Source: an uncultured Pirellulaceae bacterium (lineage in GTDB: Bacteria > Planctomycetota > Planctomycetia > Pirellulales > Pirellulaceae). Taken from it: 64,000 nt of DNA. How positions within the stretch are numbered: the first letter of the stretch is position 1; each line of letters begins with the position of its first letter. The notes beneath the pieces were generated by a model. That model did no database searches. It was not told the origin of the DNA and worked only from the letters and a program-made list of their open reading frames with translations. A program made the translations under genes and the position numbers. Below, one piece after another: positions 39,125-42,197 of this stretch. Where the stretch lies: contig CALKGE010000001.1 of the NCBI GenBank assembly GCA_938084685.1, forward strand, positions 558,001 to 622,000, read 5' to 3'.

Positions 39125-39333
39125 GATTCGTTTCTGACCGTGTCAGCCGCTGTTAACATGCGAAAATGCTGGAAAGGATAGGGTGGAAAACGGGTACCTT
39201 TTTTACCTGATCGTCACATCTTATCACAATTCCATAAAATCCGCAGAACGGCAATATTCTGTAAAACCGTTCCCCGATAACGAATTCTATATAGATGGTT
39301 TTTTGTGCAATTGTCAAAGGTGAGTTCGGGAAT

Positions 39334-39720
39334 ATGCGAATGACAAAGACAACCATTGCGGTATTGGTTCTATGCTTTTTTACGGTGCAATTGAAAGCGG
39401 AGCAGGACGAGAAAGCTCAGAATTCGAAGGCGTTGCTTGACGTCCCGGACCTATCTGAGGTTCTGGAGCCCGGGAGTATTAAAAGTGCGTTTGAATTACT
39501 GTTCCAGGACCTTTTTGAAACCAGGGCGGTAACGAAACCAGTCGGGGCCAAAACCGCTCATCAGCATGGCAAACCTGCATTGCGTATCGATGTGAAGAAG
39601 ACGGAGCAGGTACCCGCCAGCCAACCTGTTGTGAAACCAGCTATTCAACGGCGTAAAACGCCTGCCCCGATCGTGAATCCGTCAAAGTTCCGGTTTGGAG
39701 TATCCGACCGCGAGGTTTAA
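39334..39720 (+). CDS. Small secreted protein of unknown function
   Basis: 128 residues from ATG 39334 with a signal peptide (MTKTTIAVLVLCFFTVQLKA) and a low-complexity mature part with prolines and lysines. No family recognised. An in-frame ATG at 39340 is an alternative start. The gene is short and isolated, so its reality rests on the clean signal peptide. Confidence 0.5.
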   Translation: MRMTKTTIAVLVLCFFTVQLKAEQDEKAQNSKALLDVPDLSEVLEPGSIKSAFELLFQDLFETRAVTKPVGAKTAHQHGKPALRIDVKKTEQVPASQPVVKPAIQRRKTPAPIVNPSKFRFGVSDREV

Positions 39721-39747: not shown

Positions 39748-41679
39748 CTAACGGGAACTCAGTTCATGCACCGCGTCGACAAGCGCGATCGCGTTGGCGA
39801 CTGGAGTTTGCTGTAGTACTCCGTGGCCCAGGTTGAAGATATGCCCAGGACGCCCGGCTGCCTGATCAAGTACATCCTGAGCTCGCGCGCGAATTGTATC
39901 TCTGTCGGCTAGCAATACGAGAGGATCCAGGTTTCCCTGAACCGAGCGGTCGTGCCCTACGGTTTCCCATGCATCGTCCAGACGGATACGCCAGTCGACG
40001 CCGACAACGCGAGTGCCGGCTTCAGCCAGTAGTGGAAGTAAAGCGGGATTGCCGGTGGCAAAATTGATGACTGGGACACCAGACGTGATGCCAGCAGTGA
40101 TTTCCTGAATGTAAGGAAGTACATATCGGCGGTAGTCGTCCGTTCCCAGGCACCCGGCCCAGGAATCGAAGAGCTGAACACATTGGGCACCGGCGGCAAT
40201 TTGAGCATTCAGGTAACGAGTGATTGCTCGTACAAATCGTTGCATGAGTTCCCGCCAGGCGCCTTCATCACGATACATGATGGTTTTTGTATTGAGATAA
40301 TTTCGGCTGGAACCTCCTTCAATGGCGTAGCTTGCCAACGTGAAAGGAGCTCCGGAAAATCCGATCAGTGGCATATCGGCGGGCAGTTCCTGTCGCGTCT
40401 GCCGGACGGTTTCCATGACGAAGTCGAGTGAGTCAACGCTTTCCAGTTCGATAACTCTCTGGATATCTTTTGCTTCGCGAATCGGATTGTGAATGACGGG
40501 ACCTTCCCCTTTGGCAAATTCGAGGTCCAGTCCCATTGGTTCCAGAATGGGAAGCAGATCCGAGAAGATAATTGCGGCGTCCACTCCGAGTTTGGTGACC
40601 GCTGTGACCATGATTTCGGCACACAGGTCGGGACGTTTGCACAGTTCCAGGAAGGTCGTTTGGTTCCGAATATCTCGGTACTCTTTCATATATCGACCAG
40701 CCTGTCGCATGAGCCAAACTGGTGTGACGTCCGTTGCTTCCCCTCGGCAGGCCTTCATAAACGGACTGTCATACCAGGGTGCATTGGGGTCAAGTACATC
40801 AGAGCTGGGGCCGGATAACATATGCCGAATCCTCTTCTTTCTTTCTTTTAATTCGTTACTCTTCTGAGCCGCAGTGATAACCATGGGGCCCATTTTGGGA
40901 CTTTCCGGTTCCAGGTCCACTGGTAGTGATAAATGTCGTATCCATTCGCTGGTAGTTGGTCCGATGGATACCACGACACATTGATCAAATTGTGATTGTA
41001 TTTCATCTGCCAGCCCAAGTTGTCCGGCCAGATCAAACAGGTTGGTGAGTTGGTGAGCAGAGGTGAACATCAACACGTCCATTTCACCAGCCGCGATGGC
41101 GCGAATATTGCGTTCCAGCGGTTCAGTGTCTTCCGGCAGTGCCCAGCGGTAGACTTTGACGGACTGGACATGAGCTCCACGTGCTTCCAATCCAGCTACC
41201 AGGCTGGGATTGGGTTTTCCATATTCCTGAACGGCGACGGTGAGTTGATTGACTGGTAGGTCCTGGTCCAGTGTAGAAAGCACTTCCCGCCAGGTATTGG
41301 GAGATGGAATGCGAATAGTGGGGGTAATTCCGTATTCCTTCATGGCAGCTACCGGCTTGGGTCCGCGAGCTACCGTCGTCATGTCCTGCAAGCAGTTTAG
41401 AAATCGCTGCATATCCACATGGCGTTCAATGGCCTGGATCAGGTGCTTGAAACCGACACCGGTCATGACAATGAACACGTCAACTTCGCCGGTCATGATA
41501 CGGTTTGCCAGGTCGATATTGGGTCGATTTTCCTCCAGGGCCACTTCACGCATGGACGGACTGACATGTGCCTCTCCGCCGTGACGTTCGATCAGCCGGA
41601 CCATGTCGTCCGTTCGGCGGCTTTCAAAGGCAGCGACTTTCAAGCCGCTGAAATCAGGATTGGAAGTTGGGTTACTCAT
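39748..41679 (-). CDS. hemE: Fused uroporphyrinogen-III synthase (HemD) and uroporphyrinogen decarboxylase (HemE)
   Basis: One continuous frame of 643 residues. Residues about 12-265 match HemD (AAFESRRTDDMVRLIERHGGE, VFIVMTGVGFKHLI, VDVLMFTSAHQLTNLF-type and VVSIGPTTSEWIRHL). A charged linker (QKSNELKERKKRIRH) follows, then HemE from about 297 to the end (PVWLMRQAGRYMKEYRD, IFSDLLPILEPMGLDLEF, GFSGAPFTLASYAIEG). The two enzymes act in series, making uroporphyrinogen III and then coproporphyrinogen III for haem. An internal ATG with a good ribosome site could give HemE alone (see 40819-40836). The frame opens earlier, at 41790, but ATG 41679 is where homology starts. Confidence 0.9.
   Translation of the reverse strand: MSNPTSNPDFSGLKVAAFESRRTDDMVRLIERHGGEAHVSPSMREVALEENRPNIDLANRIMTGEVDVFIVMTGVGFKHLIQAIERHVDMQRFLNCLQDMTTVARGPKPVAAMKEYGITPTIRIPSPNTWREVLSTLDQDLPVNQLTVAVQEYGKPNPSLVAGLEARGAHVQSVKVYRWALPEDTEPLERNIRAIAAGEMDVLMFTSAHQLTNLFDLAGQLGLADEIQSQFDQCVVVSIGPTTSEWIRHLSLPVDLEPESPKMGPMVITAAQKSNELKERKKRIRHMLSGPSSDVLDPNAPWYDSPFMKACRGEATDVTPVWLMRQAGRYMKEYRDIRNQTTFLELCKRPDLCAEIMVTAVTKLGVDAAIIFSDLLPILEPMGLDLEFAKGEGPVIHNPIREAKDIQRVIELESVDSLDFVMETVRQTRQELPADMPLIGFSGAPFTLASYAIEGGSSRNYLNTKTIMYRDEGAWRELMQRFVRAITRYLNAQIAAGAQCVQLFDSWAGCLGTDDYRRYVLPYIQEITAGITSGVPVINFATGNPALLPLLAEAGTRVVGVDWRIRLDDAWETVGHDRSVQGNLDPLVLLADRDTIRARAQDVLDQAAGRPGHIFNLGHGVLQQTPVANAIALVDAVHELSSR
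40819..40836 (-). promoter_or_regulatory. Internal ribosome binding site and start codon for HemE
   Basis: On the minus strand AAGAGG (40836 to 40831) lies 9 bases before an in-frame ATG (40821 to 40819), in a purine-rich run within the linker of the fused gene. Starting here gives 357 residues, a normal HemE length. It suggests a second, shorter product in addition to the fusion. Confidence 0.5.
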
Positions 41680-41843
41680 GATGTTTCCAATATAACTCAC
41701 AGGTGCCAACTTGAGAGGGTGTCTGAATGCGATCGGAGGGAACGAAGTAAGGATTGGGAAACCGGAAGGAAAAAAGAGAAAAAATTTCAAGAATAATTCA
41801 ATTTCACCTCAGCTTTCTGCCGACCCGGACGATTCACTACTCA

Positions 41844-41861
41844 CACGGCAGGGATGCCGTG
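41844..41861. repeat. Hairpin upstream of the small gene at 41952
   Basis: CACGGCA (41844-41850) pairs with TGCCGTG (41855-41861) around a GGGA loop. A second small stem-loop (AGGAG / CTCCT) follows near 41890-41902. Both lie within the probable leader of the next gene. Confidence 0.4.
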
Positions 41862-41951
41862 AGGCTGGCTTATGGAAAAAGCAAACAAGGAGGTTTGCTC
41901 CTGAGCAGCCGACTAAGACGAGAAACTTTGGTTAGCAGGAATAAGAATTAA

Positions 41952-42197
41952 ATGGTCCGACGCATTCTGGATTTCCAGCAGGCAGCATTGAAAACATCCG
42001 CACAGGTTCCCGTACCGGAACAGCTGAAGCAGGAAACACATGTTACTGTGCAGTTGAGTGAAGTTTTGCCCGCTTTGACAGATGCTTTAATGAGCCATCG
42101 GGCTTGGGTTCAGGATTTTGAAGATGACCTCCTGCAGGTAAGCAAGGATTTGCTGGAGGTAATTCAGGCCTACGATCGGATGCGGAGCGCCGCCTGA
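41952..42197 (+). CDS. Small protein of unknown function (81 residues)
   Basis: An ATG at 41952 opens 81 residues (start MVRRILDFQQAAL). The product looks helical and acidic in its second half (WVQDFEDDLLQVSKDLLEVIQAYDRMR), with no membrane helix. No family recognised. A strong terminator 24 bases past the stop and structured leader DNA before the start support a real, separately expressed gene. Confidence 0.55.
   Translation: MVRRILDFQQAALKTSAQVPVPEQLKQETHVTVQLSEVLPALTDALMSHRAWVQDFEDDLLQVSKDLLEVIQAYDRMRSAA

Follow-up and report, generated by a model that had tools for sequence, protein, structure and literature searches.

The gene studied here lies on the minus strand of a 64,000-nucleotide stretch of an uncultured Pirellulaceae genome (the window), where it joins a predicted uroporphyrinogen-III synthase (UROS or HemD) to uroporphyrinogen decarboxylase (URO-D or HemE), and it raises the question of whether one protein or two are made from it. 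A sequence-only reading had described, giving no strand, a frame running unbroken from HemD into HemE, with AAGAGG nine bases before an in-frame ATG that would open a HemE of 357 residues, and both descriptions were borne out: the frame is single, carries HEM4 and URO-D matches, and contains the motif and start codon as described (Table 1). On balance we consider it likely that the gene specifies a bifunctional HemD-HemE and that, solely in the genus to which the window belongs, a ribosome-binding site and start codon in the linker would also yield free HemE. The neighboring frames, one of 81 aa at 41952 directed away from hemDE and one at 39295-39720 directed towards it, are both on the plus strand, so the gene is probably transcribed without its neighbors.

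Table 1. Features of the hemDE locus in window coordinates
Feature	Position	Strand	Remarks
hemDE fusion gene	39748..41679	minus	Unbroken frame, 643 aa, 71.4 kDa; start ATG at 41679, stop ends at 39748
HEM4 / uroporphyrinogen-III synthase (UROS/HemD) domain, Thermus-type	40879..41610	minus	Residues 24-267
URO-D / uroporphyrinogen decarboxylase (HemE) domain	39763..40767	minus	Residues 305-639
AAGAGG, SD-like	40831..40836	minus	Ends 9 nt upstream of the ATG of codon 287 (A at 40821); Arg283 AGG invariant, 9/9 in genus
Internal in-frame ATG, Met287	40819..40821	minus	Would open a 357-aa HemE of 39.5 kDa
Codons 276-296	40792..40854	minus	Peak of third-position and synonymous conservation along the gene among genus members
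TATATTG, possible -10 box	41688..41694	minus	Conserved in 9/9 genus members

The fusion and its distribution

Both domains were recognized by profile searches. The match to HEM4 (PF02602) scored 141.9 bits, far above the cut-off, and covered positions 1-230 of the 231 in the profile; the match to URO-D, at 418.6 bits, was likewise far above its cut-off. The HemE half also passed the hemE equivalog model TIGR01464 (401.6 bits against a cut-off of 302.95), and the fused HemD fell below the NCBIfam equivalog cut-offs for HemD. The URO-D catalytic residues R325, R329, D374, Y451, S506 and H619, which we take to correspond to R37, R41, D86, Y164, S219 and H339 of the human enzyme, are present and invariant among 51 relatives; in the HemD half, Tyr177 of a VYRW stretch, presumably the conserved UROS tyrosine, is kept in at least 90% of relatives. 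AlphaFold modelled both domains of the fusion confidently (mean pLDDT 89) and the linker at residues 281-300 less so (pLDDT ∼70), with a pTM of 0.63 that leaves the relative orientation of the domains unfixed; in this model a helix at residues 263-289 ends at the internal start codon and is followed by a loop. Foldseek searches with the model matched URO-D structures (E 1e-31) and the Thermus UROS 1wd7 (E 6.6e-17). Among solved structures, the fused HemD is closest to the UROS of Thermus thermophilus (PDB 3d8n, 1wcx, 1wd7; E 7e-13), which shares ∼25% identity with it but forms single-domain chains. By profile and structure match, the HemD half is a UROS of predicted activity.

A genome search recovered one frame across both domains in 45 of 60 Pirellulales relatives, to which G001, where a contig end cuts the gene, and G024, G046 and G048, where reading of the loci confirmed the fusion, were added for a total of ∼49 of 60. 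Fused relatives cover most families of the order, and a family-wide search of 199 genomes returned the same pattern. One relative (G045) has hemD and hemE adjacent but separate, with the junction TGA-A-ATG, and four others (G034, G043, G052 and G055) have HemE without a fused HemD; G056 was rejected as an unfused case, both halves being located at contig ends. The Planctomycetales also have adjacent, separate genes, which share the HemD subtype (by tree) and the gene order of the fusion but have their own start and stop each instead of one fused frame. This distribution marks the fusion as an old one and as usual for the Pirellulales. HemD-HemE fusions were seen as well in G136 and in metagenome-assembled genomes labelled Omnitrophota or Acidobacteria (L065, L066, L068 and L082), the latter grouping near G136 and the Planctomycetales in the HemD tree; transfer and independent fusion are both possible.

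The CobA-HemD (SUMT-UROS) and HemC-HemD fusions described in passages of PMC4921024 and PMC11237513 likewise join UROS to a neighboring tetrapyrrole enzyme, and a passage of the former connects such UROS fusions with unstable intermediates. Those fusions tie UROS to the siroheme/B12 branch or to the preceding step, whereas HemD-HemE ties it to the first enzyme of the heme branch. HemD-HemE is absent from the table passage of PMC4921024 and from the passages of PMC11237513; a description of it was not found in the open-licence literature searched, within which the fusion is apparently undescribed.

A candidate internal start in the linker

Viewed in one genome, the internal start is not unusual: in a sample comprising the 64-kb window and 400 kb of genome loci, a core Shine-Dalgarno (SD) 4-mer lay 4-12 nt ahead of 8.8% of internal in-frame ATGs, and at least one internal ATG of this kind occurred in 39% of genes. 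The alternative that survives best, although we regard it as unlikely, builds on this abundance and holds that the 71 kDa fusion is the sole product: the SD-like stretch would be a by-product of a Lys/Arg-rich linker (RKKR) and the ATG an ordinary methionine. It is consistent with the basic RK motif that is widespread in the linkers of fused relatives, and with the lack of the site in most of those relatives. It fails to predict, however, that AGG is found throughout the genus and that synonymous conservation reaches its gene-wide maximum at this point, a maximum absent in three control genera.

In a codon alignment of fused relatives, AGG and ATG were present in 9/9 genomes of the genus, all of them metagenome-assembled, which share ancestry and do not represent nine independent events. 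Pairwise third-position identity within the genus is about 0.37-0.52 (two close pairs excepted), which is near saturation, and retention of the site despite this is above chance. The SD was retained through an amino-acid change (K282Q) and an AAG/AAA change. Arg283 is encoded by AGG in every member, whereas codon identity at 30 other invariant Arg positions was 0.14-0.58; of 47 Arg codons counted in the hemDE gene of the window 1 is AGG, and across 464 kb of the genome AGG makes up 4.8% of Arg codons. The probability of an SD arising at the linker by synonymous recoding was 0.02-0.07 per member.

Third-position identity was 0.78 in windows starting at codons 277-278, against 0.45, and the linker ranked first among 629, 625 and 619 windows (lengths 10, 14 and 20, respectively); it also ranked first of 605 when codon identity was normalized by amino acid. 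Resampling of columns encoding the same amino acids gave p <= 2e-4 for each tested window, and both the peak and this bound held with seven non-redundant genus sequences. No linker peak was found in the control genera g53, g329 and g10, which lack the site and were represented by 9-10 genomes each; there the best linker ranks were 288/619, 120/587 and 258/594. This conservation shows nucleotide-level selection on the linker within the genus and is the strongest evidence presented here; the position and form of the conserved stretch support ribosome initiation as the function selected.

The selected nucleotides could instead have another role, whether in binding a protein or RNA, as a promoter within the gene or as a regulatory RNA element; we consider this improbable. 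Conservation does reach past the ATG (TCC GGC, GAT), and in a sister genus of three genomes (L213, L214 and L215) third positions are nearly identical (0.97 vs 0.60) slightly further downstream in the linker, at codons 290-309 in the numbering of the window gene, without SD or ATG; the peak, however, coincides with the SD, the spacer, the ATG and the first codons. RNAalifold returned no conserved structure for the linker (-3.2 kcal/mol) and no compensatory pair. No sigma-70-like promoter site was found in 40700-42000, where 1.1 were expected by chance, which gives no indication of a transcript starting inside the gene. A programmed frameshift was also rejected as a candidate, the in-frame A_AAA_AAG heptamer of L006 not being conserved.

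Outside the genus, 3 of 50 fused relatives (L050, L055 and L070) carried an ATG in the linker preceded by a core SD, and the internal site was absent from the nearest genera (g351 and G023). This comparison makes the internal site a feature of the genus, not of the fusion, and one probably gained at the genus level; its rarity elsewhere implies that the fusion works without an internal start. Whether relatives sharing the fusion keep the site was a check put forward with the sequence-only reading, and the outcome was divided, with the site kept inside the genus and not kept outside it. The two-product design proposed there is thus favored within the genus, where the linker start is under nucleotide-level selection, and does not extend to the fusion in general. 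That the internal start is real but a remnant of a separate hemE start, inherited from an ancestral hemD-hemE pair such as those seen in the Planctomycetales and G045, is very improbable, since the genus is nested among many fused genera without the site and SD plus ATG are largely absent already in the surrounding lineages, which favors a gain.

The signal itself can be compared with other starts of the genome. In the genome sample a core SD was present at 29% of first-ATG starts with a peak spacing of 8-9, at which it occurred in 84-88 per 1000 starts versus 7-14 per 1000 internal ATGs. AAGAGG places GAGG at spacing 9 and AGGA at spacing 8 from ATG287, the preferred spacing of the genome, in an SD of only 4 contiguous bases, and the 16S gene carries CCTCC (GGATCACCTCCTTTC). 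The region around the internal start was less folded than the gene median in all nine members, a modest degree of openness (12th-42nd percentile). At the primary start most genus members have no core SD; a TATATT that ends 9 nt before this start codon is conserved though other upstream DNA has diverged, and could be a -10 box, in which case the mRNA would have a short leader or none. Non-SD initiation of the leaderless or short-leader type has been reported in planctomycetes (PMC5397173). If TATATT is indeed a -10 box, one may speculate that the two starts would use different modes of initiation.

According to the explanation we favor, the linker in this genus alone would have gained a start codon with its ribosome-binding site, ribosomes would initiate at codon 287 on the same mRNA, and free 357-residue HemE would accumulate as a second product, with the presumed role of raising HemE over HemD. 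Bacterial in-frame internal starts, as in Caulobacter, where 75 alternative starts have been reported (PMC4117421), similarly involve one mRNA, two in-frame starts and an N-terminally truncated second product. The hemDE start differs in that we infer it from comparative sequence only, and in that what the truncation would set free is precisely one of the two fused enzymes, complete.

Two UROS types and a possible division of uroporphyrinogen III

Heme and siroheme/B12 synthesis diverge at uroporphyrinogen III. The fusion enzyme would convert hydroxymethylbilane to uroporphyrinogen III and then to coproporphyrinogen III, and might, as the sequence-only reading suggested, channel its intermediate from one half to the other. 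The same genome has one HemC and a second HEM4 domain, in a CobA-HemD fusion (contig 6, 95861-97378; L121:1474-2994, minus strand), and CobA-HemD-like matches were obtained in 57 of 60 relatives. In the tree, CobA-type and HemE-type UROS form two groups divided by a long branch (100/100 support), with no exchange between them. Their structure matches also differ, being Thermus UROS for the HemE-type and other UROS structures for the CobA-type. Each UROS is joined to the enzyme that opens its branch, and the fused HemD would serve the heme branch as CobA-HemD would serve the siroheme/cobalamin branch.

Given the second UROS, uroporphyrinogen III probably has a source besides the fused HemD, whose essentiality cannot be deduced. 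One genome, G021, has the fused HEM4 only, but the fused HemD as sole UROS was rejected there because its congener G492 has both; G021 probably lacks the second copy through an assembly gap. In Mariniblastus-like relatives (L063, L064, L069, L070 and L071) the genes are fused and HemE is intact, with a degenerate HemD half (HEM4 24-60 bits vs 142). This degeneration fits the redundancy of two UROS copies, and some lineages may be able to do without the fused HemD.

More tentatively, the Pirellulales might possess two ancient UROS paralogs, each tethered to its own branch so as to commit uroporphyrinogen III, with one genus tuning HemE:HemD through the internal start. If true, two UROS copies fused to different branch enzymes would be a simple way to divide uroporphyrinogen III, and the internal start of the genus, for which the sister genera are ready-made controls, would be a natural case of a fused enzyme regaining independent dosage of one half.
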